Source: an uncultured Acholeplasmatales bacterium (lineage in GTDB: Bacteria; Bacillota_I; Bacilli_A; Acholeplasmatales; Anaeroplasmataceae). Taken from it: a stretch of DNA of 39,741 nucleotides. Location: the NCBI GenBank assembly GCA_944324795.1, contig CALUXR010000018.1:1-39741 (forward strand), read 5' to 3'. Position 1 is the stretch's first letter. The number at the start of each line of letters is the position of its first letter. The notes under the pieces were generated by a model that saw only the letters and a program-made list of their open reading frames with translations, was not told where the DNA came from and did not search any database. The translations under genes and the position numbers were made by a program. This document shows, in pieces, positions 77 through 24,374 of this stretch.

Positions 77-107
77 AGGTATTTAAAATTAACTAAATAC
101 CTTTTTT
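77..107 (+). terminator. Second hairpin with a plus-strand U-run
   Basis: AGGTATTTA at 77-85 pairs with TAAATACCT at 94-102, followed on the plus strand by a T run to 107. It abuts the minus-strand stop codon. It could be the plus-strand half of a bidirectional terminator, although no plus-strand gene lies upstream inside the window. Confidence 0.4.
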
Positions 108-1554: not shown

Positions 1555-3009
1555 TTAACTAGGCCATATTCTTCTTGGAACTGCTTTAGAATATGGTGTA
1601 TCTTTTGTATAAAAATCTGTTTTTCCTTTTCCACTTGAAACATATACATCATTTACTACATATATTGTTTCATTAAACCATTCTGAATCTTTTAATTTAG
1701 TTGTATTATTTGAGGCACTTACTGCTACTTCGCTACCATTACTTGAAACGATAATATTACCATTTAAAGGTTTCATTTTTAATTCTTCTTCATCATAATA
1801 ACTTGTGACATAAACTTGATCTGTATATTTTGCCACTCTATTTATAAATTCTTGCGTAGGAAATATTGTTTGATAATTAGCTGTATATTCAGTTGAACCA
1901 GCACAACAACAAATGCTAACTATCTCTGGAGTGATCAATTTTAATAAACATTCATTAGATGATGTTCTTGAACCATGATGTCCTGCCTTAAATAAATCGA
2001 CATGTGGTAATGTTTTTTCTTCTGTTGAACCATCATAATATTCTGCCATTTTTTCCTCGCCTTCAAGCTCTAAATCACCTGTTAACATATAATGATGTTC
2101 ATTATAATTAAACATCGTACATACTGAATAATTATTTTCATCATCTGTTTTATTAAAATAGAAATAATTATATAAGATATCCATTGTTATATTTTTATTT
2201 TCATCTAAAATAAAACTACTTTTAGCCCCATTAACATTATTAAAGCAATCATCTGCATACATTACATTTGTACCATTATTGCCAATATAATCAACAGCTT
2301 CTAATAAATCTTGATAAATTTGTGTAGTTTTTGATGTTTTATCATTCATTATAAAATTATCAATTTCATAATTATATAAAATTCCTGTATAACTATCACC
2401 ACTCTTATTACCAACAAACCCAGCTATATGGTCTTGATCACCGTGTGTAGCAATAACATATTCTAATTTATCATCTGTTACATAATTATCTAAATAACTT
2501 ATAATATCATCAGCACTATCTTTTCTTGATCCTGCATCAATTAAAATATCTGTCTCCCCTGCTTTAATATAAATAGAATCTCCAGTGTAATCATTACCAA
2601 GCATTAAAAAATGAATTTGAAAATCGTCATAGGTTGTTCCTACAACAGCTTGATTATTATTAGGTTTTAGATCCTCATCATCTTTATTAATATTATTAGT
2701 TATACCATTAATTATTTTATCAGCAAAACCAATATTAATAATTTTATAATAATCTAAGGCAAATAAAACGCCAAAACCAATTATTAAAATAAATAATATA
2801 ATTAAAATTGGCTTCCAATATTTTTTTGCTTTTTTACTGTTTATCTTAACTTCATTATCACCAATATTAATGCCAACTTTAAAATTATATCCTTTACTTT
2901 GACAATAATTAATAGCTTCTATTTTACTAGAAAATATTTTACTTGCTCTTTTACTTCCTTGTTTTTTAACTTCAAAAGAGCCATCTTCTCTTTCATTTAT
3001 ATAATACAT
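1555..3009 (-). CDS. Membrane-anchored ComEC-type metallo-beta-lactamase with DUF2188-like head
   Basis: This 484-residue protein has three parts. Residues 1-50 resemble the small DUF2188 domain (GSF.VKKQGSKRASK pattern). Residues 66-87 are one transmembrane helix. From about residue 125 there is an extracellular metallo-beta-lactamase domain. The metal site HGDQDH (H189, D191, D193, H194), the strand ILIDAGS and the late LFKAGHHGSRTSS motif match the C-terminal domain of ComEC/Rec2 and its stand-alone relatives, which are implicated in cutting DNA during uptake. No Rec2 channel is present, so it is not a full ComEC. It is the last gene of an operon, 14 bases after the preceding lipoprotein gene, with a weak ribosome site. 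Inference: a surface phosphodiesterase or nuclease. Another hydrolase activity is possible. Confidence 0.8.
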   Translation of the reverse strand: MYYINEREDGSFEVKKQGSKRASKIFSSKIEAINYCQSKGYNFKVGINIGDNEVKINSKKAKKYWKPILIILFILIIGFGVLFALDYYKIINIGFADKIINGITNNINKDDEDLKPNNNQAVVGTTYDDFQIHFLMLGNDYTGDSIYIKAGETDILIDAGSRKDSADDIISYLDNYVTDDKLEYVIATHGDQDHIAGFVGNKSGDSYTGILYNYEIDNFIMNDKTSKTTQIYQDLLEAVDYIGNNGTNVMYADDCFNNVNGAKSSFILDENKNITMDILYNYFYFNKTDDENNYSVCTMFNYNEHHYMLTGDLELEGEEKMAEYYDGSTEEKTLPHVDLFKAGHHGSRTSSNECLLKLITPEIVSICCCAGSTEYTANYQTIFPTQEFINRVAKYTDQVYVTSYYDEEELKMKPLNGNIIVSSNGSEVAVSASNNTTKLKDSEWFNETIYVVNDVYVSSGKGKTDFYTKDTPYSKAVPRRIWPS

Positions 3010-4591: not shown

Positions 4592-5926
4592 TTAACTAAA
4601 TAAAGCTTTAAAACTTTTTCTTACAACTTCTACATAAGGTGTAGGATTATAATAATATTTGCTTGAAATAGTACCACCACCTGTGATGTTTCCAAACATT
4701 TCACCCCAACCACCATAATAATTTAAATATTCTTGAAAATCATTATAATGATTATATGTATAAAATAAATATTTTTCATTAATATCTATAATTTTATCAT
4801 GATTTTCATCATATCTTGTATAAACAATTCGTGCTGCCCCTCTAGTTATAATGTTGCCATCATTATATATTTTAGATGGGTATTTAGGGTCACAATCAGT
4901 ACCTGTAGTTCCTAGGTCAACTTCATAATAATATAATTCGCCACCACAACCTCTAATATTAGGTAAAATTGGTTCGTAAGGATAGTTATCTACATCACCA
5001 CTAAAGTATGAATTATTTAATCTTAAATATTTACCCCATATACTTCTTTTTGGATCAGCACTTTTTTCATCTATATAATTAGCTGGTGTTTCTCCAAAAG
5101 CAAAAATATAAGCTGCCACTTCTTCAAGAGTAGTATAAGCACCACCTCTATAAACAACATCTTTTACTTCACCACTACTATCGACAATATAGTAAGTATC
5201 TAAATCATCACTATAATAACTATCCGTATTACGAATAAATTTACCATCTTCTTCAGGTCTGTTTAAAGAAATGGTTGGTTCTTGATCTTGTTCTGAAATA
5301 GAACCAGACATTAAGCCGTGTAATGAGCGATACATTGCATCAGTAGCTGATGTAGCTTCAGTATAATTTAAGTAAAATTCTTCTACATCAATATTTATAT
5401 ACGGATCTTCTTCAACTTCTATTTTTTCATAAATAGGGTATAACGTAATATCACTTGTAATAGGTATTGTAAAATCATAAGCTACCCCATCTTCACTTAA
5501 AGACCAATATTTAAAAATATAACCATCTTTTTTAGGATCAGCTATAACTTCAGTTAAATTTCCTTCTTTAACTTCCATTATTTTTTTATTATTATCATCT
5601 ATTATAAAAATTACTTTATAATATTTTATCGGCTTTTCTTCTTCATTAATATTAACAATAACACTATCACTATAATTATCAATTGTTAAAGTAACAACAG
5701 TTGTTCCTTCTTCTAAGGCTGTTATTTTTCCATCATTAGTAATATCTACTATTTCTTTTGAACTTTTCCAAATTTTATTACCATTAATATTAGTATTATA
5801 TTTAATATTTACTGTGTCCCCAACTTTTAAATTTATTTCTTCTTCAACTATATTAAGAAATTTATCTTCACAAGATGCAAGACTTAATAATATTAATAAA
5901 AATATTAAACTAATTTTCTTAATCAA
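4592..5926 (-). CDS. Barnase-like ribonuclease lipoprotein with Big_2 and InlB-type repeats
   Basis: The preferred start is TTG at 5926, giving MIKKISLIF...LASC. It sits about 9 bases after AAAGGA; an in-frame TTG at 5935 touches the ribosome site. After lipobox Cys19 come a Big_2-like Ig domain (about residues 30-95), an InlB B-repeat-like domain (about 100-168, ending DITLYPIYEK) and a linker. The last third is a microbial RNase (barnase/RNase N1) fold. Glu335 in YYEVDLG, Arg366 in AARIVY and His393 in YNHYNDF match the barnase catalytic Glu73, Arg87 and His102. It is therefore likely a surface RNase that cuts RNA. No barstar-like inhibitor is in the window. First gene of the operon ending at 1549. 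Confidence 0.85.
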   Translation of the reverse strand: MIKKISLIFLLILLSLASCEDKFLNIVEEEINLKVGDTVNIKYNTNINGNKIWKSSKEIVDITNDGKITALEEGTTVVTLTIDNYSDSVIVNINEEEKPIKYYKVIFIIDDNNKKIMEVKEGNLTEVIADPKKDGYIFKYWSLSEDGVAYDFTIPITSDITLYPIYEKIEVEEDPYINIDVEEFYLNYTEATSATDAMYRSLHGLMSGSISEQDQEPTISLNRPEEDGKFIRNTDSYYSDDLDTYYIVDSSGEVKDVVYRGGAYTTLEEVAAYIFAFGETPANYIDEKSADPKRSIWGKYLRLNNSYFSGDVDNYPYEPILPNIRGCGGELYYYEVDLGTTGTDCDPKYPSKIYNDGNIITRGAARIVYTRYDENHDKIIDINEKYLFYTYNHYNDFQEYLNYYGGWGEMFGNITGGGTISSKYYYNPTPYVEVVRKSFKALFS

Positions 5927-5949
5927 GTATATCAATCCTTTCGCTAACG

Positions 5950-6053: not shown

Positions 6054-7181
6054 CTAAATGTTTAATAAGATATTAATCCTTTCTTTAATAATATTTTCTA
6101 ATATATTTAATCTATATTTATCTAAATTATAACGTGAATGTTTTTTTAACTTAAAATTAATTAATTTCTTTAACATATCTTTTTGTCTTTTAGTAATATA
6201 TAACTTTGCTTCTAAAATAAAATCATTATAACAGCTTGGTAATAATGTTTTAATATATTTATTATAATTTTTCAAATCATCTGCCATAGCAAAATTTAAT
6301 AATGATAAACCATGATCAAATAAAGGAGCAGGTTTAATAATTTTATTAGTTTTATTATCAATTAATAAGCCAAAATTACCAAAATGCCTATCAGTATTTA
6401 ATATAATAGCATCAAATACAATCATATCTATTAATGAATCATAAAATATAGGACCTAAAGTCTTATAATAATTAATAACTTTATCCATATTACAATCTTT
6501 AATTATTCTACCAATAGGGATAAAAGAATAATTTAAACTTGTAAATAATTTAGAATATGAACATAATTTCCCCTTCCATTTAGCTAAATTATAAGGGATT
6601 ATATCAATACCCATAGTAAAGCCAATTTGACTAGCATAATATTCTGAATATGGTTCATTACCGCTATTAGCAAAACCTTCTGTTCCACTTTTAAAAAGAT
6701 AAACTTCGCCATTAATTCTTCGCCAACATTTAGCTAACATGCCATTTGTTGTAAATTCGGGTGATGATCTAAATGTGCTTTTTAAATAAGAACCATAACC
6801 TGTAAAAGCTATTAAAGCTAAAACATTACTAAAATTATTTTCATATAAATTATAATCTTCAAATAAACCATTAAAATTATCTTCTACTACCCAAAAACAA
6901 TCATTTAAAGATAACCCCTTACTTATATTAAGTATCCCTATTAAATCTCTATGATTTAGGCCTAATTTAGCTAAAAAATTTTCTACATAAGCTCTATTTT
7001 TAGGAATAATTCTTCTATATAACCATTTAATTAAACCATCATTAGTTAATTCTAAATCTAATGGTAATAAATATTTAAATTCACCATTAATATCAAGAAT
7101 ATTAACTTTAATTTCACCTAATTCTCTTATCATTTCAAAAGATAAAAGAATATTATCAAATGATTTAAGATAATATTTCAT
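6054..7181 (-). CDS. HipA-like kinase, no HipB partner
   Basis: The product is 375 residues. ATG at 7181 is preferred over ATG at 7190 because AAAGG directly abuts the latter. The C-terminal half carries HipA-fold kinase motifs: a candidate ATP lysine in YLFKSG (Lys164), the catalytic loop NTDRHFGNFG (Asp264, Asn269) and the metal-binding LFDHG (Asp289). Residues 1-130 are not the usual HipA N-terminal subdomain that I can recognise. HipA proteins phosphorylate targets such as glutamyl-tRNA synthetase and normally sit beside the DNA-binding antitoxin HipB. Here the gene has its own promoter and terminator and no HTH gene next to it. It may be an orphan Ser/Thr kinase rather than a toxin. The target is unknown. 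Confidence 0.8.
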   Translation of the reverse strand: MKYYLKSFDNILLSFEMIRELGEIKVNILDINGEFKYLLPLDLELTNDGLIKWLYRRIIPKNRAYVENFLAKLGLNHRDLIGILNISKGLSLNDCFWVVEDNFNGLFEDYNLYENNFSNVLALIAFTGYGSYLKSTFRSSPEFTTNGMLAKCWRRINGEVYLFKSGTEGFANSGNEPYSEYYASQIGFTMGIDIIPYNLAKWKGKLCSYSKLFTSLNYSFIPIGRIIKDCNMDKVINYYKTLGPIFYDSLIDMIVFDAIILNTDRHFGNFGLLIDNKTNKIIKPAPLFDHGLSLLNFAMADDLKNYNKYIKTLLPSCYNDFILEAKLYITKRQKDMLKKLINFKLKKHSRYNLDKYRLNILENIIKERINILLNI

Positions 7182-7205
7182 TCTAATCATCCTTTCCTAT
7201 TTTTT

Positions 7206-7270: not shown

Positions 7271-9436
7271 TTAAGAAATATAAGATAAAGTGAAATTTTT
7301 CATAATCATTCTAGGAGCAGACCCATAAACAACTATAGCAAAATAACCAGATTTAGTAGAATCAAAACTATATTCAAAGATATTTCCTTCTTTACATTGG
7401 CTAGAAACATCAGCAATAAGTTCATAATTTTGACCATTACTTGAATAAATGATACTACATCCATCAAAATTTTTATTTATTGTTCCAACTTCAAAGCTAA
7501 TTTTATTTAAATTTTCAACATTAAATTCAAGTATTGCAAACATTTCCCAACCACCAATATTATATTTATCATTAGGAGCATTATAATTTTTTTCATCATT
7601 GAAGCCTAATAAAAATTCACTGTCTTTTGTACTATAATTTGTAGTATAAAAAGTAACACCTTGATCTGTTATTTCAGCCTCTTTACTAAATGTATTGCCT
7701 GTTGATGGAAATTTCATTAAATTATAAACAATATCACTTATACCAAGTAATTCATTATATTCCCTATATTTTTGTTGTAATAAATTATAATTTGTAACTT
7801 TTGATTTATCAGCTGCAGATAATAAATCATATCTAGATTGTAATGAATCTAATAATGTCTTATCTTCTAAAGTAATAGTTTTATTTCTTAATTCTTCAAT
7901 ATCATTAATTAAATCAGCAATAGTAGTATCTTCTATATCTCCGCCACCAATATTGCCATTTTCTACTTTAGTTAAGACATTTTCTTCTGTTATTCCTAAT
8001 TCTTCACTTTCATCTTGATATAAGAAATATACAAATTCAGGATGATCAATATAAGGGTTACGATCTCCTTGATAAGAATAAACTACTTCATTTCTTTTAA
8101 TTTCAGTTTCACTTACAGGATCTTCATAATGCCATTTAACTAAAGTGTCAAGCATTCCAAGATTTCCTACGCCTTTACTATTAGGGTAACTGCCACTATT
8201 ATCTAAAGTTAAAGTTAATGTACTATCATGATATCTTGTAACCATATAAAATAAAATTCTAGCTACATCACCTTTTACTTCATCACGTGGCTCAAAAACA
8301 GAACCAGTCCATTTATTTCCATGTTGATCACTATCAGTTGGATTATTAACTTCATCAAAATACTTGTTACCACGTGAACTATTAATAGCTTTGCCAGTCG
8401 CTCTTAAATGATGACAATCTGAATATGCCCAATAACTTTGATCATCAAAACCATGTGATTTTGCCCATACATGTTCTCTATTCCAAATTGTATTATCGCT
8501 ACCAGAACCTTGATCTCTTCTATCTTTTTCTATAATTAAACCTGTATAAAAACATTCAATATGATCACTATCATAAGCATCAGATTCTTCTAAAATTGTC
8601 CAAGCTTTGGAATATGATCCTTTACTAGTATGTGTAGATACTAAAATATCATTTAAAGTATTAAAGAATTCGTCATATGTATCAAAATTACCAGTCATAT
8701 CTGAATAATAACCAGTATAAGTTATATCGCTTGGTAGTTCTCCTGAAGGAGTTATAGTTCCATCTTTTTTAGCTATAGTAATATTAAAATCTTTAGTTTT
8801 AATAATACCATTATATGAAATGCTAGCTGTAAAAGTTGTAGAAACATCATTATCTCCTCTTGTAATAACAACATTATATTCATTATCAGATTTATTAAAA
8901 CCAAGTAAATTAGAATCTTTAGCCGTCCAAGTTATATCATAACTAGCTCCACCATAAGAAACACTAGCAGGAACTTTAAAATCAGCACTAACCTTAGTTC
9001 CATTAACACTAACATTAATAGAATTAATGATATTTAAAGCTATTTCTTCATCATTACTTTGAATAGCTTCTTTTTTAGCTATAGTAACATTAAAATTCTT
9101 ACTCGCGCTAGCATCATTATAGGTAACACTAGCACTAAAATTAACTTTAACATCATTATCACTTCTTACAATTTTAGCATCATAATTAGAACCGTTTAAA
9201 CTAAATGTTAAAGCATTAGTATTTTCACTAATATAAGTTAAATCATAATTTTTTCTTTCATAACTAATACTAGCAGGAACACTAAAATCTTCATCAACAG
9301 TCATATTATTAACACTAATGTTTAATGAATCGATTATTTTTTGTGCAATTTCACTATTATTTATATTATTAACATCATTACATGAAACTAATATTATTAA
9401 CAATAATGAACTTATAAATATGCCTAATTTTTTCAT
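7271..9436 (-). CDS. Secreted endonuclease I lipoprotein with two Ig-like domains
   Basis: This 721-residue protein starts with a lipoprotein signal (Cys19 in LVSC). Two Ig-like repeats follow (about residues 28-122 and 130-224); both contain ..DF.VPAS.SY and end FN.TIAKK. Residues about 238-440 are an endonuclease I (bacterial EndA/NucM-type) domain. The metal and catalytic segment NREHVWAKSHGF has His322, and DCHHLRATGKAINSSRGN includes His342-His343 and Asn352. The family cleaves double-stranded DNA, and some members cut RNA. A coiled linker (about 500-570) and a C-terminal beta-sandwich of the galactose-binding kind (about 575-721) follow. It has its own promoter and terminator. The position between the RNase operon and the importer operon supports a role in degrading environmental DNA. 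Confidence 0.9.
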   Translation of the reverse strand: MKKLGIFISSLLLIILVSCNDVNNINNSEIAQKIIDSLNISVNNMTVDEDFSVPASISYERKNYDLTYISENTNALTFSLNGSNYDAKIVRSDNDVKVNFSASVTYNDASASKNFNVTIAKKEAIQSNDEEIALNIINSINVSVNGTKVSADFKVPASVSYGGASYDITWTAKDSNLLGFNKSDNEYNVVITRGDNDVSTTFTASISYNGIIKTKDFNITIAKKDGTITPSGELPSDITYTGYYSDMTGNFDTYDEFFNTLNDILVSTHTSKGSYSKAWTILEESDAYDSDHIECFYTGLIIEKDRRDQGSGSDNTIWNREHVWAKSHGFDDQSYWAYSDCHHLRATGKAINSSRGNKYFDEVNNPTDSDQHGNKWTGSVFEPRDEVKGDVARILFYMVTRYHDSTLTLTLDNSGSYPNSKGVGNLGMLDTLVKWHYEDPVSETEIKRNEVVYSYQGDRNPYIDHPEFVYFLYQDESEELGITEENVLTKVENGNIGGGDIEDTTIADLINDIEELRNKTITLEDKTLLDSLQSRYDLLSAADKSKVTNYNLLQQKYREYNELLGISDIVYNLMKFPSTGNTFSKEAEITDQGVTFYTTNYSTKDSEFLLGFNDEKNYNAPNDKYNIGGWEMFAILEFNVENLNKISFEVGTINKNFDGCSIIYSSNGQNYELIADVSSQCKEGNIFEYSFDSTKSGYFAIVVYGSAPRMIMKNFTLSYIS

Positions 9437-9564: not shown

Positions 9565-12500
9565 TTAAGCAGCAAAAGTGATAGATATACTGTAAATGTA
9601 CAATCTACAATTTATTTTAGAACCATCGCGTGTAGAGTTTAAAATTTTTATAGTATCAACGCCATTTACAAAACTTACTTCTGTAGTATGTTCAACACTT
9701 AAATCAGTAATATCAAACCATGAATCATTTATTTTAAATGCTCCACCAATGGCGTTATTTCCTTTCCAAGTGATTGAAATTTTAACAATTTTTTTACCAT
9801 TTAGAGATGTAATGTTCAACTCATTTCCTACACCATCTGAAGCATTTCCGTATAGTCTTAAACCCCCATCTGTATTCAAGGCTGGCAACGTAGCTGAATT
9901 ATTCTTATTAACTATTAAAGATACGTTGTCTTTTGCATTTTCATAATATTCTGTAATATCTGTCCCATCTTTAATGTTTTGAACATTGTCAGCTACACTT
10001 TGCGTTAAAGTTATAGTTTCACCTTCAACAACTGTAGATAATTGAGTTGTGAATTTAATAACTATTTCGGATTGATCTTCGCCAATACTTGCAACAACTT
10101 TTAATGATATTTCTTCTGGATCATCTTTTGGACTAATTGTTATAACATTATCTGCATATGTTACACTAGTAAAATCTCCTTCTAATGTATATGATAATAC
10201 AACATCTTCATAAGTTTTACCATTAGCATAAACATTGATAGTTTCATCTTTTGTATAGCTTGTAGCAAATAATTCCTTAATATCATTTAATTCTTGTTCT
10301 ACTTTTGCACTATTTGGAATAGAAATTAATTCAATATCTTCATCCCCAAATAATGGAGAGATTTCAAAAATACTATTATATCTTTGAAGATATCCTGAAA
10401 TCTTATAAGTGCCATTTTTTACGAATTTAATGTTTACACTTGTAAATGACCAATCCTCGTAATATTGAATCTTTTGTTCGCCTACATATAAGTATTCTTT
10501 CTTACCATCAACTTTATATTCCCCTATTACAGATACATACATTGCTTCAAGTTCAGGATGATCATTAGGATTTAATTTACCTTCTTGAACTATTGATGTT
10601 ACATCTTTAGCTACAACAGGAGTTGTTGATTCACCTAATGTAACACCGTCTTCGTTAACAGTAAATACATGTTTAGAGCTATTAATATCTTTAATTCCAG
10701 ATAAAGTTACATTGTGTCCTGCAACAAATTTTGTCATCCACCAGTCTTTAGCACTTGAATTTTGAACTAAATAAGCTCCATTTTCATCTTGAACAATAGC
10801 AGTACCCTTGCTTCCATTTAGACCAGAAGCTACAACAACACCACTTGCTTCTATAGCATCACCAGCAGCAGCATTATAATATTTTTCCCAATTAGATAAT
10901 GCTCTACCTACAACTGTGATGTCTTTAGAGACATCAGCAGTTGCAGTATTACTTGCATCAAATGTTACAACTATAGTAGCAATAATTTTTACAGTTGCTT
11001 GTTCACTTGGAAGATTAGCAAAAGTAATCTTATTTTCTGCTATAGTTGCGTATTCTGAACCTTGTTCAACTTTATAAGTAACTTGAACACGATTGTCTTC
11101 AGAAACATATAAATCATATATCATTTCAGATTCAGCATTAATATTTGGAATTAAATCTAAAGCTGCTTGAACTTTACCTTTTTCAATACCTAGAACTGTA
11201 TCTGGTGTTTCTGTAACTTGTTGTTCTTTAGCAAAATCTAATGAACTTGGACATAATTGAAGAGCTTTGTTACTTACAGCTAAGAAGCCTTCCATTAAAT
11301 AAGTTTTACCAACTTCTAATTTAATATCACTATCTTCATATTCAGTTCCTAAATAATCATCTTTTAAGTAAACTGTATAAACATTAGCACCAATTGTAAC
11401 TTTAACTGTGCATTTGAAATCATTAACTTTGCCAATTTCTGTTACAGTTGCTACAAATTTAGCTTTTGTGTTTTGTAAAGCTATTACACTTTTATCTGTT
11501 GCAGGTTTTGCAGATAAAGTATTTGTTAAATCTACATATTCAAATGTTTTTTCTTTTGCATCAGTAATAGCATAATATTTAGAACCACTTCCTATTTCAT
11601 CCCAACAACTATATGGACTCTTTTTACCAACAATAGCAACCTTTTTACCAACTGCTAAATATTTTTCTACTTCAGCTTTTGCTTCTTCTTCAGTAGTTGA
11701 ATATAAATACATATTGTAAGCATAATAGCCACCATTTTCATCTTGTAGCCATAATGAAACTTCATAATCATCATAATATTTTTTAAATAGATGAGTATAT
11801 GTTACATAACCTTGAATAGTTACAGCTACATTATCTGCGGCAGCTGCATATTCTTCATATGTCATAGGATTCATAGCATCAATTTCAGCTTGTGTTTTTT
11901 CCATTTCTGGTCTAATAGTAGCATTAGTTGTAATAGTTATGATACCTTCTTTTACAACACTACCAAGTTTAGCAGTAACTTTAATCTTAACTACTTCTTC
12001 AGTGTTAGCTGGAGTAATAGTTAATTTACCATCTGCTAATGAAACTGTAGTATAAGTACCATCTAAAGCATAAGTTAATTCAACTTTATCAAATGAATCA
12101 CCTTTAGCAGCTAATGTAACACTAGCATCTTCAGAATAAGTTTTATTATTTAATGAATTTACAACTGAATCTAATTCATATTGTGCTTTAAATTCATCAG
12201 TAGCTTCAGATACTAAAGAAACTGCATCTGTACTAATTGGAGAAATTTGATAATTTTTATAAATATTAACGAAACCTTTAACATCATAAGTATTACCTAC
12301 AACTAATTTAGTTTCTAAATCACCATTTAAAATCTTACCATCTAAATACCAAGCAATTTCACCATTACCTACTTTGAAACCACTACCAGTATACATAGCG
12401 CCTTTTAATTCAACTAAATGAGCCATTAATGGTCTTAATTCAGTTGGATTTGCACCATTAGAAATGATACTTGTAATATCTGTATAGCTTGGTTTTGCAC

Positions 12501-14544
12501 CTTCTAAGTTAGTAACAATAGTGCCTGCACCATTTTGTAATACTATTTGATATAAGCCATTAAAATATTCTAATGAACCTGTAACTCTTACAACATTACC
12601 AACTTTGAATGTATTTTCAAATTTATTACCATAACCAAGAGCTCTTACATATACAGCACCAGCACTAGTTTGTAATAAAACTACTGGTTTATTTGTATTA
12701 GAATGAACTACTGTACCTTGATATGTTACAGTTGGATATGGAGCTTCAGTAGTAGTAGTATTGTTAATGATGTCTTGTTGAGCTTTTTCTTCAGCTTCAG
12801 TTAAAGCTTTTAAAGCATCAACAATATTGAATGTTAATACTACAGAATCAACTTTAGCATTTTCGCCTTCACCATAAGTGATAGTTGCGATAACGTTAAA
12901 TTCTAATAAATCTTCTGGATAATCAGGATGATCTTTATCTTTTAAGCATGCTTCTAAATAATAACCACCTGAAGCATATTGACCAATTTTTACATATTTT
13001 TCAACATCATTACTTTCTAATGCATAGACAATCTTTGCTCTTGATGATTTATATAAATCAACCCTAGCACCTCTTAATTCAGTAGTGAATGCAGTATATG
13101 TTAAAGATTGACCTGATGTAGCTGCTACTTCTTCTTCTAATACATCTTGATTTGTCTTAGTAACAATATTCCATTCATGTGTTTTAGGGTCTACACCATC
13201 TAATTTAGCTGTAGCAACTAATGTAGCTTTTGATGCTGTTTGAGGATCAACAGTAACCATTAATTTATTACCCTCTGTTAAAGTAATACCATTACCTTCA
13301 ACATCTTTTAATTCATATGAAATAGCTACTTTTACATCACCAGTTGCAACATATTCAGTAATTAATTCTAATGGAGCATTTAATGTTGAATAATTTTCTT
13401 CAACGACTTCTTGTCTACTAACTGCAGCTATTGCAGCATCAATTCTATCTTGGTCAGTTACTACTTTACTTGTAATTGTATAGCATTCTGTAGCAATTGG
13501 GCAAATTTGAGCCCCATCACGACTAATTGAAACTATACCTTCAATTTTAATTGTATAACCAACTTCTAAATCAGATAAATAATTTTCAGGTAATGCACCT
13601 AAATATGAATCTTTGAAGAATGCACCATAGCCTGTTTGACCATTAACAGTTAAACCAACTTTCATTTCTTCACTATTATATTCATCTATACTAGCTACTT
13701 TAGCAGTAACTGTTACTTTCTTATTTTGAACTGCTTGAGCTTCTTTTGAATTTGGTTTTAAACCGCCCCATAAGCTTGTTACATCTTCAAAATCATATTT
13801 CTTAGGTTCTGCATCTTTAATATAGTAATAAGTAGAACCTGAACCTACTTCATCCCAACCGTTAAATGGACTCTTTTTACCAACAATAGCAATTTTATTT
13901 CCTTCTTTAAAGTAAGTATCCCATTCACGTTGTGAATTTACTTTAACTCTATAAGCATAATAACCACCATTGTCATCTTGTAACCAAACTGAACCTTGTG
14001 CATATGATGAGCTATAATCATGTGGATGAGTTATATACCCTTGAATAACAATAGAGTCGCCAGATTCAGCAGCTGCATATTCTTCATATGTCATAGGATT
14101 CATAGCATCAATTTCAGCTTGTGTTTTTTCCATAGATAAATCTAGGGCATCTACATTAAATTCCCAAGATCTAGGATCTACTTTTTCAATTGTTACAGTT
14201 AAAGTGAATTTTTGAGCTTCACCTGTTTGAGTAACATCTATAGTAACCGTTTTTGCTGAATCGTTTTTAACGACTGCAGCACCAGTACCAGAAATTTCAT
14301 ATGAAACGCCAATAATTTCACCATCAACATTAATTTCATAAGGAACAGTGAAATCACTGTTTACAAAAGAACCAAGAGAATTATTATCATCATCTAGTCT
14401 TTCGTTTTGATCCCATGTAGTATCTAATAATAGACTAACATTAGTCATAGCTTGTTCATATTTTTTATTGCTACAAGCAGTAAGGGCAATCGCTACTACA
14501 AGTAACATAAATAATGAGGCTATTAATCTAAAACTCTTTTTCAT
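9565..14544 (-). CDS. Giant modular lipoprotein of Ig-like and OB-fold domains
   Basis: This 1659-residue protein has a lipoprotein signal (ALTAC). I read its architecture as repeated units of Ig-like domains plus paired OB-folds. OB-like segments lie near residues 160-245, 272-360, 600-680, 695-775, 903-990, 1010-1090, 1215-1290 and 1300-1380. Ig-like domains lie between them. A C-terminal beta-sandwich covers about 1490-1659. OB segments show pairs such as VTIQGYV...VSLWLQDENGGYYAY and VGKKVAIVGKKSP. Residues 138-159 and 881-902 are identical and come from a 65-bp perfect DNA repeat, evidence of recent internal duplication. The same paired OB domains follow the nuclease domain in the preceding gene. 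No catalytic motif was found. Inference: a surface nucleic-acid-binding scaffold that holds substrate for the nucleases. Carbohydrate or protein binding cannot be excluded. Last gene of the operon, 15 bases after the nuclease gene. Confidence 0.75.
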   Translation of the reverse strand: MKKSFRLIASLFMLLVVAIALTACSNKKYEQAMTNVSLLLDTTWDQNERLDDDNNSLGSFVNSDFTVPYEINVDGEIIGVSYEISGTGAAVVKNDSAKTVTIDVTQTGEAQKFTLTVTIEKVDPRSWEFNVDALDLSMEKTQAEIDAMNPMTYEEYAAAESGDSIVIQGYITHPHDYSSSYAQGSVWLQDDNGGYYAYRVKVNSQREWDTYFKEGNKIAIVGKKSPFNGWDEVGSGSTYYYIKDAEPKKYDFEDVTSLWGGLKPNSKEAQAVQNKKVTVTAKVASIDEYNSEEMKVGLTVNGQTGYGAFFKDSYLGALPENYLSDLEVGYTIKIEGIVSISRDGAQICPIATECYTITSKVVTDQDRIDAAIAAVSRQEVVEENYSTLNAPLELITEYVATGDVKVAISYELKDVEGNGITLTEGNKLMVTVDPQTASKATLVATAKLDGVDPKTHEWNIVTKTNQDVLEEEVAATSGQSLTYTAFTTELRGARVDLYKSSRAKIVYALESNDVEKYVKIGQYASGGYYLEACLKDKDHPDYPEDLLEFNVIATITYGEGENAKVDSVVLTFNIVDALKALTEAEEKAQQDIINNTTTTEAPYPTVTYQGTVVHSNTNKPVVLLQTSAGAVYVRALGYGNKFENTFKVGNVVRVTGSLEYFNGLYQIVLQNGAGTIVTNLEGAKPSYTDITSIISNGANPTELRPLMAHLVELKGAMYTGSGFKVGNGEIAWYLDGKILNGDLETKLVVGNTYDVKGFVNIYKNYQISPISTDAVSLVSEATDEFKAQYELDSVVNSLNNKTYSEDASVTLAAKGDSFDKVELTYALDGTYTTVSLADGKLTITPANTEEVVKIKVTAKLGSVVKEGIITITTNATIRPEMEKTQAEIDAMNPMTYEEYAAAADNVAVTIQGYVTYTHLFKKYYDDYEVSLWLQDENGGYYAYNMYLYSTTEEEAKAEVEKYLAVGKKVAIVGKKSPYSCWDEIGSGSKYYAITDAKEKTFEYVDLTNTLSAKPATDKSVIALQNTKAKFVATVTEIGKVNDFKCTVKVTIGANVYTVYLKDDYLGTEYEDSDIKLEVGKTYLMEGFLAVSNKALQLCPSSLDFAKEQQVTETPDTVLGIEKGKVQAALDLIPNINAESEMIYDLYVSEDNRVQVTYKVEQGSEYATIAENKITFANLPSEQATVKIIATIVVTFDASNTATADVSKDITVVGRALSNWEKYYNAAAGDAIEASGVVVASGLNGSKGTAIVQDENGAYLVQNSSAKDWWMTKFVAGHNVTLSGIKDINSSKHVFTVNEDGVTLGESTTPVVAKDVTSIVQEGKLNPNDHPELEAMYVSVIGEYKVDGKKEYLYVGEQKIQYYEDWSFTSVNIKFVKNGTYKISGYLQRYNSIFEISPLFGDEDIELISIPNSAKVEQELNDIKELFATSYTKDETINVYANGKTYEDVVLSYTLEGDFTSVTYADNVITISPKDDPEEISLKVVASIGEDQSEIVIKFTTQLSTVVEGETITLTQSVADNVQNIKDGTDITEYYENAKDNVSLIVNKNNSATLPALNTDGGLRLYGNASDGVGNELNITSLNGKKIVKISITWKGNNAIGGAFKINDSWFDITDLSVEHTTEVSFVNGVDTIKILNSTRDGSKINCRLYIYSISITFAA
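11840..11904 (-). repeat. 65-bp perfect direct repeat, copy 2
   Basis: Identical base for base to 14069-14133, 2229 bp away and in the same reading frame. It encodes residues 881-902 of the giant lipoprotein, at the start of an OB-fold pair. Confidence 0.95.
14069..14133 (-). repeat. 65-bp perfect direct repeat, copy 1
   Basis: Identical to 11840-11904. It encodes residues 138-159 (MEKTQAEIDAMNPMTYEEY...). The flanking modules are similar but diverged, so this block has been kept identical by recent duplication, conversion or selection. Confidence 0.95.
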
Positions 14545-14559: not shown

Positions 14560-15837
14560 TTAACCGAAAATTACATCTTCATAACTTACCAAACGAATTT
14601 GATAAGTCCCTTCATAATTATCAACAATACCAACAACGCTTGTTAATACTGCATTTTTAAAATCGCCTTCAGTAAGAGGATCTCCATAACTCTTATAAAG
14701 ACTACCTGTTCTAATTTGAACAGTTTTGTTATCGCTTGTTTTACATGTGATAGTCATTTCTTTAGCAACAACATCACCAACCATTTCTTCTGATGTGTAT
14801 GTGCTTGTTACAACTAAGTTTTCAATTTTAACTAGTGTATGCATAATTTCTTTACCATTATTTAATTCATCACCAGTTATTGTAACAGGTTCTGTTGTAT
14901 GACCACTACTTACTAAATGACATTCTTGAGGATACTTTTCAACTTGACCATCATGGAATGGATTATATGAGCATCCTGCTACTTGCCAATTGCCATTAAA
15001 TTGTTGAACAAAACCGTGAACTCTAACTAGATTACCAACTTTAAATGGAGACATATTACCAGTTAAAACAGAATCATAACCTAAATAAATAACAGTACCA
15101 TAAGATTTGCCATCAACTTCATTTTGTAAATAGCAATAGTTTTCATATCTTTTTGTTACATAGGCTTCAAAATTAACTCTCTTATTTAATAAAGGTTCTG
15201 GATTTATGCTAATATCTTTAATTGTTACATCTTGACCATTTGAATAATCATAATCTGGATCATTTTCGCTTGACCAAACACGTAAATTTAAATTCATTGC
15301 TTGAGTTCCAGCTTCTTGGAATTCAGTTTGATATAAAGCTCCTTCAACAGATTTATTTATTGAATAGCCTTCTTGAACTAATTCTAAATTTAAATTTCTA
15401 AATTCACTAGCACTATCCATTTTATACCAAATGAATGCTAAATAACGTGAGCCTGTTGAATCAGCATCAGGTACAGTTCCTGTTGATGATTGTAAAACGA
15501 TTGTTTCTGCATTATTTAAAATATTTTTAGTGAAATCAGAAGCAGCTTTACCCCATGGTTCAATTCTACCTGTTGATTCTGGTGTATCAACAGATACAAA
15601 TCTAATTTTAGCTTCTTCGCCACCAGTTAAGAAGTAAGCTGTATCACCATCAATATTAGCATATAATTCTACTTCACCAATACCATCCGCGAAAAATTCT
15701 TTATCTTTGTATGATACATCTAATTTTAAATTAGAAACATAATCAACTTTTTCTTTTTCATCATTATTACAAGAAGCTAAAATAAGAGAGAAAATCAATA
15801 CACCTAATATTATTAGAACATTATTGATTTTTTTCAT
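14560..15837 (-). CDS. Staphylococcal-nuclease-type lipoprotein with two C-terminal OB domains
   Basis: This 425-residue protein has a lipoprotein signal (Cys23 in LASC). Residues about 52-195 are a thermonuclease (SNase) domain. Asp63/Asp65 in NIDGDTAYF bind calcium, Arg79 and Glu87 in IRFVSVDTPES match nuclease Arg35 and Glu43, and Arg131 in DSTGSRYLAF matches Arg87. The family cuts DNA and RNA with Ca2+. Two OB-like domains follow (about 215-300 and 325-425), akin to those in the next gene. ATG follows the binding-protein stop by three bases with no clear ribosome site of its own, which points to translational coupling. In mycoplasmas a membrane SNase gene likewise sits beside a sugar-type ABC transporter (M. 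genitalium MG186 with MG187-189, from memory). Confidence 0.93.
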   Translation of the reverse strand: MKKINNVLIILGVLIFSLILASCNNDEKEKVDYVSNLKLDVSYKDKEFFADGIGEVELYANIDGDTAYFLTGGEEAKIRFVSVDTPESTGRIEPWGKAASDFTKNILNNAETIVLQSSTGTVPDADSTGSRYLAFIWYKMDSASEFRNLNLELVQEGYSINKSVEGALYQTEFQEAGTQAMNLNLRVWSSENDPDYDYSNGQDVTIKDISINPEPLLNKRVNFEAYVTKRYENYCYLQNEVDGKSYGTVIYLGYDSVLTGNMSPFKVGNLVRVHGFVQQFNGNWQVAGCSYNPFHDGQVEKYPQECHLVSSGHTTEPVTITGDELNNGKEIMHTLVKIENLVVTSTYTSEEMVGDVVAKEMTITCKTSDNKTVQIRTGSLYKSYGDPLTEGDFKNAVLTSVVGIVDNYEGTYQIRLVSYEDVIFG

Positions 15838-15840
15838 TTA

Positions 15841-17181
15841 TTAAGCACCGCAAGATCTAATAGCAAAATTGAATGCTTCATCAATTTCATATGTATCATT
15901 TAATACGTTAACAACTAATTGACCAACAGCATCACGAGCTGATGAAGAACCTTCAAATGCTGGAGATACGAAATAGTATGCTTCCATTGCTGATGATGCT
16001 TTTGCAGCTGAAGCAGCAATACCATCATAACCATCAGCACCATTTAAGAAATCTTGATAAACAGGGTTATCATAAACTGATTCTAATACTGGGTTATAAC
16101 CAGAGGCAATTGAGAATTGTGCTTGGAATTCAGTAGTTAATAAATATTCTTTCATAAATTTCCAAGTCATTTGCATTTTTTCTTCACTATTTTGTTTTAA
16201 CATACATAATGATGGGCCTTGAGAAATTGCTTTCTTTGTGAAAGTACCATCTTCATTTACAAATTGAGGATATGGTGCAATACCTACTTCAAATTCACCA
16301 TTTTGTGGTTTTTGGTGAGTAGCACCACCTGTAGAACCAATTGACATATATGAAGTTTGGCTTACAAAAATTGAAGATGTATAAGTTGTTAAAATAGTTT
16401 GAGTAGTAACATAACCTTTGTCATACCAATCTTTTAACATTCTTACAGTTTCTTTATTTTGTTCATTATTAAATAAATAATGTTCACCTGTTGCAGAAGT
16501 ATATGGAGCTTCTTTTTCTTCAGCAGTTGAAATAAAGAAGTTATCTTCACTATCTATACCAAGAGGTGTTGAATTAGGATATCTTAATTTAATAACTTGA
16601 CAAACTTGTTCAATACTATTCCAAGTAGGAACTCCTCTATTTGCTTCTATTGGATCTTCATTATTTAATAAGATGTCTGTTAATCCTTGATCATCCATGA
16701 ATGTCTTATTATAGTATAGAACTTCTGTTGATTTAGAGAATGGTAAAGTATACATAGCTCCATCACCATATACTGAACCTTCTGCATAATAACCATCAAT
16801 GAAGTCATCAACTTGTTCTTGTGTATAACCAATTTCAGGATCGTTAATGTATTGATTTAAATCAACTACAGCACTAGCTTTGTTATACATTGCAACATGG
16901 TCTGGATAACAATAAACTAAATCTGGGTTTGAACCAGCAGCAATATAAGAAATTGTTTGATTTCTAACATCATCATATGAACCGATTTGAGTAGCTTCAA
17001 CAGTCCAACCTGGATTATCTGTTTCAAATTGTTCAATAGCTGGGTCTAATACTTCTCTTAAATTAGCACCCATTGTATTCCAAAATTGAATAGTATGGCT
17101 CGTATCTTTAGAACCATTATCACATGATGCTAAGCTTATTGCTGATACAGCACCTAAAGCAAAAATTAATAATTTTTTCAT
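15841..17181 (-). CDS. CUT1-type solute-binding lipoprotein of the importer
   Basis: This 446-residue protein has a lipoprotein signal (LASC). It has the family-1 binding-protein pattern: FWNTMGAN at the mature start, a NPDLVYCYPDH segment, VDLNQYINDP and a later WKFMKEYLL. Such proteins deliver sugars, glycerol phosphates or similar solutes to CUT1 permeases. It follows the second permease by 36 bases with AGAAGGAG upstream of its ATG, and its stop is three bases from the nuclease ATG. That tight link suggests the imported solute is a nucleic-acid breakdown product, but the ligand cannot be read from the sequence. Confidence 0.88.
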   Translation of the reverse strand: MKKLLIFALGAVSAISLASCDNGSKDTSHTIQFWNTMGANLREVLDPAIEQFETDNPGWTVEATQIGSYDDVRNQTISYIAAGSNPDLVYCYPDHVAMYNKASAVVDLNQYINDPEIGYTQEQVDDFIDGYYAEGSVYGDGAMYTLPFSKSTEVLYYNKTFMDDQGLTDILLNNEDPIEANRGVPTWNSIEQVCQVIKLRYPNSTPLGIDSEDNFFISTAEEKEAPYTSATGEHYLFNNEQNKETVRMLKDWYDKGYVTTQTILTTYTSSIFVSQTSYMSIGSTGGATHQKPQNGEFEVGIAPYPQFVNEDGTFTKKAISQGPSLCMLKQNSEEKMQMTWKFMKEYLLTTEFQAQFSIASGYNPVLESVYDNPVYQDFLNGADGYDGIAASAAKASSAMEAYYFVSPAFEGSSSARDAVGQLVVNVLNDTYEIDEAFNFAIRSCGA

Positions 17182-17217
17182 GTTTTCTCCTTCTCTTAAA
17201 ATTTTGCTTCAATATTT

Positions 17218-18144
17218 TTATCCCTTAATACCTGATCTAGATACACCACGCATTACGTATTTTCTAAAGAATACGAATACTAAGAATAATGGGATTGACA
17301 CAATAACTACCGCTGCCATACGCATTGGTTGGTGAGTCATATTGGTATTTGGATCAGTGAATGATGACATTAACCAGTTGGCTACCATTGTCATTGGACG
17401 TCCATGAATTCCGGTTGCATTTACTAGACGAGGCCAAATATATGAATTCCATGCACCCATCAATTTTAAAATTGTAATTGAAATGATAGTTGGCATAGAA
17501 AGTGGGACCATAATTTTCCATAAGAACTTAAAATCACTAGTTCCATCTACTTTAGCAGCTAGATATAATTCATTTGGAACTTGCTTAAAGTTATTACGAA
17601 GTAAATAGATATAGAACACGCTAACTAAGAATGGAATTATTAAAGCAATATATGTATTTAACCATCCTAATTGAATAGTTGTTACTAAATTTGTGATTTG
17701 GAACAATTCACCAGGTACCATCATAGTAGCAAGTAATAATGTAAAGATTAAATCTTTACCAATAAAATTAAGTTTAGCAAAGGCAAAAGCCGCTAAGATT
17801 GTAACTAAAACACCAAGTAATGTAGATATTACACCTACAATTAATGTGTTAATAAAATAAGTCATAAAATCATTACCAACAAAGGCATTATAATAGTTTT
17901 CCCAAGCTACTGTAGTAGGCCAGAAAGTTTGTGGTAATTCATTAGTATAATCATAAAGTGTTTTAAGGGATGTATTAATCATCCAATAAAATGGGAATAA
18001 TGTAAATAAAGCTACAAGTATTAAGAATATATAAATTAAAACTTTACTAAATATTCTAATCACTTTTTGAGCTTTTAAAGCTTTGTCAACAGATGTACCA
18101 TGACCAGCTATTTGAATGTTCATACCAGAAGTTTGTTCTTGCAT
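17218..18144 (-). CDS. CUT1 ABC importer permease, MalG type
   Basis: This 308-residue protein has six predicted membrane helices. The cytoplasmic EAA-type loop is ELYLAAKVDGTSDFKFLWKI, followed by MVPLSMPTIISI, as in MalG/UgpE permeases. It pairs with the MalF-type permease just upstream. ATG follows GGAGGTAAGAAAT closely, 12 bases after the preceding stop. Confidence 0.92.
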   Translation of the reverse strand: MQEQTSGMNIQIAGHGTSVDKALKAQKVIRIFSKVLIYIFLILVALFTLFPFYWMINTSLKTLYDYTNELPQTFWPTTVAWENYYNAFVGNDFMTYFINTLIVGVISTLLGVLVTILAAFAFAKLNFIGKDLIFTLLLATMMVPGELFQITNLVTTIQLGWLNTYIALIIPFLVSVFYIYLLRNNFKQVPNELYLAAKVDGTSDFKFLWKIMVPLSMPTIISITILKLMGAWNSYIWPRLVNATGIHGRPMTMVANWLMSSFTDPNTNMTHQPMRMAAVVIVSIPLFLVFVFFRKYVMRGVSRSGIKG

Positions 18145-18156
18145 ATTTCTTACCTC

Positions 18157-19326
18157 CTAATAATGAACTCTCTTTTTACTTACATACATATTAATTGCAG
18201 TAAATATCATAATAATTACAAGCAATATCAATGAAGCAGCGGAAGCCATACCATATTGACCAGCAAAATTACCATCAATGTATTGATAAATATAACCTAC
18301 AATTGTAATCATAAAGTTATTATTACCCATAGATGTTCCACCTGGTGAACTAAATAGACCTAAAACTGCAGTATATTCTTTAAACGCTCCAATAAATCCA
18401 GTTACTAATAAATAAGCTATCATCGGAGAAATTAAAGGAACTGTAATTTTAGTAAGAACTCTAAATTTAGGAGTACTATCTATTTTTGCAGCTTCATAAC
18501 ATTGTTTATTAACACTTTGTAAAGCACCCATTAAAATTAAAATTTTGAATGCTAAACCATTCCAAATAGAATAAATAACTACTACCGCTACTGAAGCCCA
18601 ATAATTACTACCATTTAACCAGTCGACTTGAGTACCACCAAAAAATTCAATTACATTATTAACTATACCTTGTACAGCAGATATTGCTCCTTGATTTGTT
18701 GATTGGAACATTATTTGGAATACAGCTGCAATAGCAAGTGTATTTGTTAAATATGGTAAAAAGAATATTGTTTGGAACACTTTTTGTAATGGCTTAATAC
18801 TATTTAATGCAACTGCTATTAACAACGCTATAACAACAGATGGTATAACAGTTAAAAATACGATAACTAAAGTATTTCTTATAGCTGTCCAAAATAATTG
18901 GGTTTGGTAAGTTATAAATTGAACTTTATTTGTATTACCAGCAAATATAGCCCCAATATCATGACACCATTCAGCCCAAGTTAAATCTTGATTAGAACCA
19001 GCTAAAATTTTAGCAAAGTTCCCAAAACCTAAAGAGAATGTTACATTAGCATTTGGATTAGCAACTACTAATCTATCATACCCTTCTCTAAAAGCCAAAA
19101 TCAATGTGTTAACTAATGGATAAAAAGTAAATACAATTAAAACAGCTAAAGCAGGAAGTAAATAAATATAACCTTTCTGATTGCGAAGAAATTTAGAGAA
19201 AGCATTTTTTCTTCTACTTGCCTCAGCAACTTCTTCATATATTTCTTCAACAACTAATGGGTTAGATGTATCTACACTTGTATTACTAGCATTTTCTGTA
19301 ACTACTTTTTTAGATTCATCTTGCAT
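18157..19326 (-). CDS. CUT1 ABC importer permease, MalF type
   Basis: The product is about 389 residues. A soluble N-terminal tail of about 50 residues precedes the membrane helices, as in many MalF/UgpA proteins. The EAA loop is CYEAAKIDSTPKFRVLTKI. The chosen ATG at 19326 overlaps the TGA of the ATPase gene by one base (TGATG); an in-frame GTG one codon earlier is less well placed relative to GAGG. It forms the inner-membrane channel with the MalG-type partner. Confidence 0.92.
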   Translation of the reverse strand: MQDESKKVVTENASNTSVDTSNPLVVEEIYEEVAEASRRKNAFSKFLRNQKGYIYLLPALAVLIVFTFYPLVNTLILAFREGYDRLVVANPNANVTFSLGFGNFAKILAGSNQDLTWAEWCHDIGAIFAGNTNKVQFITYQTQLFWTAIRNTLVIVFLTVIPSVVIALLIAVALNSIKPLQKVFQTIFFLPYLTNTLAIAAVFQIMFQSTNQGAISAVQGIVNNVIEFFGGTQVDWLNGSNYWASVAVVVIYSIWNGLAFKILILMGALQSVNKQCYEAAKIDSTPKFRVLTKITVPLISPMIAYLLVTGFIGAFKEYTAVLGLFSSPGGTSMGNNNFMITIVGYIYQYIDGNFAGQYGMASAASLILLVIIMIFTAINMYVSKKRVHY

Positions 19327-20393
19327 CACTTCAACCTCATTTCTGTTTCAGCATTAAATAAAAATACTTTATTAGGTTTTAAATGGAATCTTACCTTTCC
19401 TGATGTAGGAACTTTAACGTCTGCATCAACGATAGTTCTAATAGTAGGTTTTGTACTTTCAGGATGAGTTGATACAATAGATATATCTCTACCCATAACT
19501 TCTAGTTGTCTAATATCTGTTGAGAATTCTCCATCATCAGCAACTATAAATCCTTCAGGACGAATACCAACAAACACATCTTGATCTTCAAACTCAGTAT
19601 CTAAGACTTTTTCATCAGCAATATAAACACCACCATCTTTAATATAGCCTTTAAAGATGTTAATAGGTGGAGTTCCAAGGAAGTTTGCAACAAATAGGTT
19701 AACTGGATCATCATAAACATCTTGTGGCTTTCCTACTTGTTGAACAACACCAAGTTTCATAACAACAATGTAATCAGAAATTGACATTGCTTCTTCTTGG
19801 TCGTGTGTAACAAATATTGTTGTAACACCTGTTTCTCTTTGAATACGTTTAATTTCTTCTCTTGTTTGTAGACGAAGTCTAGCATCTAGATTTGATAATG
19901 GTTCATCTAGCAACAATACATTAGGACTCTTAACAAGGGCGCGTGCAATCGCAACTCTTTGTTGTTGACCACCTGATAATTCACTAGGTTTACGATCCAT
20001 CAAATTTTCAATTTGAACAATTTTTGCAACTTCAAATGCCCTAACTGCAGCCTCTTTTTTATTCCATTTTAAATTTAAAAGTGGGAAAATAATATTTTGT
20101 GCTACAGTCATATGAGGATATAAGGCATAATTTTGGAAAACTAAGCCAATTCCTCTTTTTTCAGGTGCTAAATCAGTTACATCATCTTCACCAAAGAAAA
20201 TTCTTCCTGATGTGGGTTCTTGTAAACCTGAAATCATGTAAAGTGTTGTAGATTTTCCACAACCAGAAGGGCCAAGTAAACCAATTAATTTGCCATCTGG
20301 AATTTCTATATTTAAATCATCGACGGCTCTTGTTACCTCACTTTTCTTCTTATTTGTGAAAATCTTAGTTAAATGTTCTAATACAACCTTCAT
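19326..20393 (-). CDS. CUT1 ABC importer ATPase, MsmX/UgpC type
   Basis: The start is ATG at 20393, behind GGAGGA; the upstream in-frame TTG at 20405 is part of the ribosome site. The product, about 355 residues, has Walker A GPSGCGKST, Q-loop FQNYALYPHMTV, signature LSGGQQQR, Walker B VLLLDEP and H-loop THDQ, then a TOBE-type regulatory tail (VFVGIRPEGF). It energises the two permeases encoded downstream. First gene of a six-gene operon that runs to 9565. The gene uses TGA as stop. Confidence 0.95.
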   Translation of the reverse strand: MKVVLEHLTKIFTNKKKSEVTRAVDDLNIEIPDGKLIGLLGPSGCGKSTTLYMISGLQEPTSGRIFFGEDDVTDLAPEKRGIGLVFQNYALYPHMTVAQNIIFPLLNLKWNKKEAAVRAFEVAKIVQIENLMDRKPSELSGGQQQRVAIARALVKSPNVLLLDEPLSNLDARLRLQTREEIKRIQRETGVTTIFVTHDQEEAMSISDYIVVMKLGVVQQVGKPQDVYDDPVNLFVANFLGTPPINIFKGYIKDGGVYIADEKVLDTEFEDQDVFVGIRPEGFIVADDGEFSTDIRQLEVMGRDISIVSTHPESTKPTIRTIVDADVKVPTSGKVRFHLKPNKVFLFNAETEMRLK

Positions 20394-20421
20394 AAATTCC
20401 TCCAATTGAGTAAATATTTCC

Positions 20422-24323: not shown

Positions 24324-24345
24324 TTTAACCACCTCTTCCGCCCAC

Positions 24346-24374
24346 ATTTTAATATTATGGTTTCGTTTTCGCAA
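24346..24374 (-). promoter_or_regulatory. Promoter of the second ATPase pseudogene
   Basis: TTGCGA (24369-24374), a 17-base spacer and TAAAAT (24346-24351) on the minus strand. The -10 box overlaps the ATG at 24345-24347, which argues against that ATG as the start. Confidence 0.55.

Follow-up and report, generated by a model that had tools for sequence, protein, structure and literature searches.

Among the closest described systems are those of the mycoplasmas and the Izemoplasmatales. In M. agalactiae, an SNase, an ABC transporter and the P80 lipoprotein are cotranscribed (MAG_5030-MAG_5070; PMC3585158). The lipoprotein of the M. bovis operon (MBOVPG45_0307-0311) has a homologue in M. gallisepticum, MslA, which is reported to bind both single- and double-stranded DNA and has been suggested to supply the nuclease with oligonucleotides (PMC4045577, citing PMC3754236). 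In the Izemoplasmatales (Ca. Izemoplasma, Xianfuyuplasma and Hujiaoplasma), loci have been described in which extracellular nucleases are grouped with nucleic-acid-binding domains, NrnA and ABC transporters (PMC8289736, PMC8397711, PMC10470597), and in H. nucleasis a locus with NrnA and ABC transporters is induced by nucleic acid in culture (PMC10470597). OB-like regions also occur within nucleases: ExeM is almost inactive once the region with its two putative OB folds is removed (PMC6085458). A first-pass annotation of the lipoprotein examined here knew of no described protein with its proposed role of binding nucleic acid at the cell surface and feeding nucleases. That statement is not supported, given MslA, whose operon is equivalent (PMC4045577, citing PMC3754236), and the nucleic-acid-degradation loci of the Izemoplasmatales (PMC8289736, PMC10470597).

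The window analysed is a 39,741-nucleotide stretch (contig CALUXR010000018.1) from an uncultured Acholeplasmatales bacterium of the Anaeroplasmataceae, and the locus within it comprises the following features:

1555..3009, minus strand: ComEC-like metallo-beta-lactamase (MBL) with DUF2188 (profile matches)
4592..5935, minus strand: lipoprotein with a barnase-like RNase domain (PF00545, E 0.0059, below cut-off; motif residues identified by eye)
6054-7190: weak HipA/PI3K-like kinase domain, between the Endonuclease I and RNase-like genes
7271..9436, minus strand: Endonuclease I lipoprotein with Ig-like domains (PF04231, 4.1e-42; PF20578)
9565..14544, minus strand: multi-OB lipoprotein gene (P0001), an ORF of 1659 aa
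14560..15837, minus strand: SNase lipoprotein with a C-terminal OB region, DUF5689 (PF00565, 1.4e-12; PF18942, 1.1e-6)
15841..17181, minus strand: solute-binding lipoprotein (SBP), SBP_bac_8 (UgpB and mycoplasma P68 families below cut-off)
17218..18144, minus strand: ABC permease (Pfam)
18157..19329, minus strand: ABC permease (Pfam)
19326..20405, minus strand: ABC ATPase, UgpC/MalK-like (profile matches)

An asparaginyl-tRNA synthetase gene lies upstream on the same strand, in line with the ABC genes, and a further lipoprotein gene of no recognised family lies downstream, between the RNase-like lipoprotein and the MBL. From the ABC ATPase through the multi-OB gene the gaps measure -4 to 36 nt, with 3 nt between the SBP and SNase genes and 15 nt between the SNase and multi-OB genes. 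The order is of the Mollicute type, with the SNase lipoprotein gene in line with those for the SBP, the ATPase and the two permeases (14560-20405). As in the Izemoplasmatales loci, several extracellular nucleases accompany an ABC importer, and NrnA is found in related loci and elsewhere in the genome. The SNase retains D63, D65, R79, D84, T85 and E87, which correspond to D19, D21, R35, D40, T41 and E43 of staphylococcal nuclease; with its catalytic and calcium-binding residues kept, the enzyme is likely to be competent. The OB region that the first-pass annotation placed after the SNase domain is borne out by the PF18942 match, just above the cut-off. In the Pfam scan, none of the window genes covered was recognised as a glycosidase or as another sugar enzyme. 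Three AAA_14/DUF4143 ATPase genes also occur in the 40-kb window (106-1221, 22987-24374 and 38327-39715), one of them split over two ORFs.

The multi-OB gene comprises 1659 codons (table 11), and its coordinates are as first annotated. The encoded protein carries a lipobox, LTAC, four pairs of OB-like domains (eight in all), roughly six Ig-like domains and a C-terminal sandwich resembling carbohydrate-binding modules (CBMs):

14473..14544, minus strand: signal peptide and lipobox LTAC, residues 1-24; Cys24 invariant in all 24 aligned family members
14137..14472, minus strand: Ig1, residues 25-136; all-beta in the model, resembles Ig2
13795..14133, minus strand: OB1, residues 138-250, the best-conserved domain; LysRS OB (Z 10.6), Teb1 OB-B (VIA-align, Z 10.1, 2.2 Å over 91 residues)
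13450..13794, minus strand: OB2, residues 251-365; AsnRS/AspRS anticodon-binding OB (Z 11.3-11.9)
13144..13449, minus strand: Ig2, residues 366-467; segment similarity and model
12802..13143, minus strand: Ig3, residues 468-581, partly of low confidence; model
12493..12798, minus strand: OB3, residues 583-684; strand order in the model, weak sub-cut-off Pfam matches to tRNA_anti-codon and RMI2
12196..12492, minus strand: OB4, residues 685-783; strand order, resembles the OB2 region
11905..12195, minus strand: Ig4, residues 784-880; resembles Ig6 (E 4.8e-14)
11545..11904, minus strand: OB5, residues 881-1000; LysRS OB (Z 10.6), OB1 versus OB5 E 2.3e-39
11185..11544, minus strand: OB6, residues 1001-1120; OB2 versus OB6 E 6.5e-13, strand order
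10900..11184, minus strand: Ig5, residues 1121-1215; model
10618..10899, minus strand: OB7, residues 1216-1309; PolC OB domain (Z 12.7, 3.6 Å over 116), Ifi202 HINa (Z 12.5, 2.0 Å over 88), AspRS (Z 11.9)
10309..10617, minus strand: OB8, residues 1310-1412; OB3-OB4 versus OB7-OB8 E 1.8e-7, Foldseek matches to whole two-OB HIN domains
10039..10308, minus strand: Ig6, residues 1413-1502; segment similarity and model
9568..10038, minus strand: C-terminal CBM-like beta-sandwich, residues 1503-1659; 8x8h (Z 12.2, 2.6 Å over 125), CBM15 (Z 10.3), CBM4 (Z 10)

The OB pairs separated by Ig-like domains that had been described from the sequence are therefore present, but the spacing is uneven, with two Ig domains between pairs in the first half of the protein and one in the second. 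The C-terminal beta-sandwich was likewise correctly singled out, and its last ~150 residues align to carbohydrate-binding modules with Z 10-12. This domain is common to eight other OB lipoproteins; its presence in the neighbouring Endonuclease I was looked for and not found.

Structure prediction, which the first-pass annotation had proposed as a check, yielded the OB strand order in all eight OB segments. Two AlphaFold models were used, covering residues 1-800 (pLDDT 77) and 780-1659 (pLDDT 78.6), and since their pTM is low (0.42-0.45), the domains are usable while the inter-domain arrangement is not; the fibre shape suggested for the protein is conjectural. OB1, OB2, OB5 and OB7 form the five-stranded OB barrel when compared with solved OB domains (Z 10-12.7), and the assignment of OB3, OB4, OB6 and OB8 to the same fold is supported by sequence similarity, strand order and tandem alignments. 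For OB1 and OB2, the counterparts are OB domains with which class II aminoacyl-tRNA synthetases bind the anticodon (VIA-align, Z 10-11.9). DNA-binding proteins with tandem OB folds, namely POT1, TEBP-alpha, Teb1, CST and HIN-200, are among the Foldseek matches, in which whole HIN domains give TMt 0.43-0.53 and rmsd 6.4-8.6. A sequence search of the lipoprotein for homology to solved structures found none. That the best structural matches are nucleic-acid-binding OB proteins was counted in favour of nucleic-acid capture, although a fold held in common does not by itself demonstrate function.

At the family level, 16 of the 24 members match the Pfam model tRNA_anti-codon (OB-fold nucleic acid binding domain) at E<=0.01, the best at 6e-11; the multi-OB lipoprotein itself falls below the cut-off, with 20.2 bits against 27. 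Three members match the ExeM/NucH DNase model (ExeM_NucH). Membership of DUF5689 (PF18942) was rejected for the multi-OB lipoprotein, which gave no match at E<=1; none of the 24 relatives matched at E<=0.01. Those relatives that carry a name come from uncultured members of the Acholeplasmatales and Anaeroplasmataceae, long members of 1235-1565 aa also occur in other bacterial families, and no relatives were found in viral contigs. In two loci (L112, 5711-12144, and L115) large OB lipoproteins come in pairs, the first of 722 aa and the second of 1371 or at least 1155 aa, and neither an importer nor a nuclease was recognised in the vicinity.

The length of the protein appears to reflect duplication. 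Residues 130-365 (OB1-OB2) recur at 880-1102 (OB5-OB6) with E 1.7e-55, beyond chance in the segment search; OB3-OB4 resemble OB7-OB8, and OB1-OB2 resemble OB3-OB4 (E 1.1e-6). These repeats were detected with phmmer on domain segments, plain self-BLAST giving none. Three orthologues (L021, L022 and L023) are 921, 1029 and 769 aa long and cover residues 1 to ~800, with a C-terminal domain present in two of the three. Since these orthologues are half as long, the 1659-aa copy is best explained by an internal duplication that added an extra OB-Ig half. At the nucleotide level, OB1 and OB5 begin with an exact direct repeat:

14069..14133, minus strand: 65-nt direct repeat, copy 1, start of OB1
11840..11904, minus strand: 65-nt direct repeat, copy 2, exact, start of OB5

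The copies are spaced by 743 codons, and the parts flanking them have diverged, which suggests recent gene conversion or recombination. An in-frame deletion between them would shorten the protein to 916 aa, about the length of the 921-aa orthologue, and variation in the length of the surface lipoprotein via this repeat is possible. Assembly error was considered as the source of the duplication and rejected, as both repeat copies must be traversed and error alone therefore cannot create it; extra module copies between the repeats could be hidden in the assembly.

Related loci were selected by OB match alone and their neighbours were then mapped. The conserved gene string consists of a UgpC-like ABC importer, SBP, SNase-OB, multi-OB, Endonuclease I, RNase-like lipoprotein and ComEC-like MBL, to which NrnA is added in relatives. 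Short oligoribonucleotides are the substrate of NrnA; the gene of L021 was recognised by an NCBIfam match of 1.1e-25. Around OB lipoproteins of at least 500 aa in 34 other loci, which are related by descent so that the counts are not independent, an SBP was found in 29 and an SNase in 26, with Endonuclease I in 12, MBL in 12 and NrnA in 13. These counts bear on the search for this architecture beside SNase genes that the first-pass annotation had also suggested. In 24 of the 34 loci the SNase-containing gene is directly upstream of the large OB lipoprotein, and this adjacency occurs in four families of the class; chance would not be expected to produce it repeatedly in genera that have diverged. 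The linkage to SNase, Endonuclease I and the ABC importer is likewise conserved across several families. Against a foraging role, four of the 34 loci have no nuclease, MBL or NrnA nearby, and around the small OB lipoproteins (<500 aa; 20 loci) an SBP was found in 18 but an SNase in none, with no nuclease at all in 19. Small OB lipoproteins of 250-530 aa that come straight after an SBP and two permeases, in nuclease-free surroundings, were seen in L062, L064, L065, L067, L069, L070, L072, L073, L102, L105 and L109-L111. In L068, L079 and L085, MBL genes adjoin genes for NrnA and for OB proteins.

The host genome, which is 99.5% complete, lacks a PBP transpeptidase domain that was detected in control genomes. 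This is in line with a wall-less cell, and the host is apparently wall-less, so that its lipoproteins face the medium directly. A BacA (UppP) gene is nonetheless present in the window (28047-28886), and its role may be in glycosylation rather than wall synthesis. Both purF and pyrB score over the cut-off, and deoC is also present; judged from these genes, de novo nucleotide synthesis looks present. Nucleotide auxotrophy was therefore rejected as the reason for the locus, and nucleic-acid use would be nutritional rather than a cure for auxotrophy. Two tandem NrnA-like genes lie away from the locus (G000, contig C37:1602-3474).

Together, these observations suggest, with a probability of roughly two in three, that a wall-less gut bacterium of the Anaeroplasmataceae/Acholeplasmatales forages for nucleic acid by means of this locus, in which the protein is the lipoprotein that captures the substrate. 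The lipid at Cys24 would anchor the protein, with the four OB pairs held outside the membrane on Ig-like spacers. The OB pairs would hold DNA or RNA, probably single-stranded stretches, chiefly by aromatic stacking, and the captured polymer would be handed over to the SNase-OB, Endonuclease I and RNase-like lipoproteins anchored alongside, which would cut it. The fragments would then be taken up by the SBP and the UgpC-like transporter; they may be short oligonucleotides, as the NrnA genes in many related loci suggest. The nucleic-acid binding and feeding of nucleases originally proposed for this protein are putative but well supported by genomic context, and the first-pass interpretation as a whole is supported in part. 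A broader proposal, possible but doubtful, is that wall-less Bacilli have loci for nucleic-acid utilisation on the plan of those for polysaccharides: a multi-OB lipoprotein free of nuclease domains would capture the polymer, anchored nucleases would cut it, a dedicated ABC system would import the oligonucleotides and NrnA would complete their breakdown in the cell, while receptor length would change by in-frame recombination between the internal repeats.

Against this reading, every OB domain has a negative net charge (pI 4.5-5.7), although the neighbouring nucleases are equally acidic, and in the family alignment a single column, K224 (0.54), is basic in at least half of the sequences. Conserved aromatic columns are found at Y156, Y177, W187, Y196, Y198 and F227, with tyrosine at the S341 column. 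Of the basic or aromatic binding face on which the first-pass annotation made nucleic-acid binding depend, the aromatic positions are thus conserved and a basic face is not. Aromatic conservation on acidic domains fits base stacking better than contacts with backbone charge. Sugar binding would be compatible with it too, and the conserved aromatics may be structural or sugar-fitting. The transporter is moreover of the sugar/glycerol-phosphate type by profile, which counts against foraging. Together with the CBM-like C-terminus, this UgpB/MalK-class transporter keeps alive an alternative in which the protein is an adhesin whose OB and Ig modules attach to glycans or mucin, with sugars bound by the OB domains and the CBM-like end. 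The ABC system would then bring in oligosaccharides, and the nucleases would be separate passengers with the task of clearing host DNA, as the small OB-SBP loci without nucleases would also allow. We consider it unlikely, because SNase accompanies most large OB lipoproteins, the same kind of OB region is fused to SNase itself, MBL and NrnA neighbours recur, and the Pfam scan of the window recognised no glycosidase.

A purely structural role, in which the protein is a spacer or scaffold for surface nucleases and its OB domains have lost ligand binding to mediate protein contacts, appears less probable still. The acidic domains, the fast divergence of OB3 (16-30% identity) and the varying domain number would suit it, and engineered OBodies (structural matches 4gn4 and 4glv) show that OB folds can bind proteins. 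Yet OB1 is the most conserved of all domains (75/78/54% identity to the three orthologues) and retains the conserved aromatic positions.

That the protein is a DNA receptor for natural transformation, which binds long DNA to be taken up by a machinery that includes the ComEC-like MBL, is highly improbable. In its favour, a DUF5689 protein, proposed to bind DNA, is essential for transformation in Riemerella (PMC8459023) and a ComEC-like gene occurs elsewhere in the genome besides the locus MBL. Yet incoming DNA would be degraded by the several nucleases encoded with the protein, the match of the locus MBL to ComEC is confined to the C-terminal part (model positions 450-659), and the ABC importer and NrnA suit nutrition better.

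If nucleic-acid capture is indeed its function, the protein adds a non-catalytic capture component to the nuclease and importer systems of wall-less bacteria, and gut relatives, not only marine or parasitic ones, would forage for nucleic acid. From the recurrent association with NrnA follows the testable claim that the ABC systems import oligonucleotides rather than nucleosides. The receptor family, which occurs in several families of the class, also offers a way to name many surface proteins that lack annotation.

In its overall composition, the locus resembles the mycoplasma SNase-ABC operon, which likewise brings together a surface lipoprotein, an SNase lipoprotein and an ABC importer in wall-less bacteria. 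The mycoplasma MAG_5030/P80 protein is, however, a modelled solute-binding protein that corresponds by position to the window SBP, and no multi-OB protein is described for that operon in the literature examined. The rationale also differs, as the mycoplasma host lacks de novo nucleotide synthesis, whereas the window genome has the genes for it. In the Izemoplasmatales, a large protein of 1,049 aa joins nuclease, nucleic-acid-binding and lamin-tail domains; the window protein has no recognised nuclease domain. Tandem pairs of OB folds, as in OB7-OB8 and others, also occur in HIN-200, POT1 and TEBP-alpha, but these are eukaryotic intracellular proteins, their whole-chain superposition is poor and a sequence relationship was not found. 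SusE and SusF are non-catalytic surface lipoproteins that bind glycans through repeated modules and whose genes accompany those for enzymes and an importer. The window protein is like them in build and would work in a similar way, with OB folds in place of starch-binding modules and a different putative substrate, and no homology is claimed. The open-licence literature searched yielded no multi-OB lipoprotein that stands apart from any nuclease domain and is regularly encoded next to SNase. The role is therefore known in outline, and the separate multi-OB receptor beside SNase is the part that appears undescribed: in ExeM, NucH and YhcR, paired OB-like regions lie within the enzyme, whereas here four such pairs are carried by a non-catalytic lipoprotein of their own.
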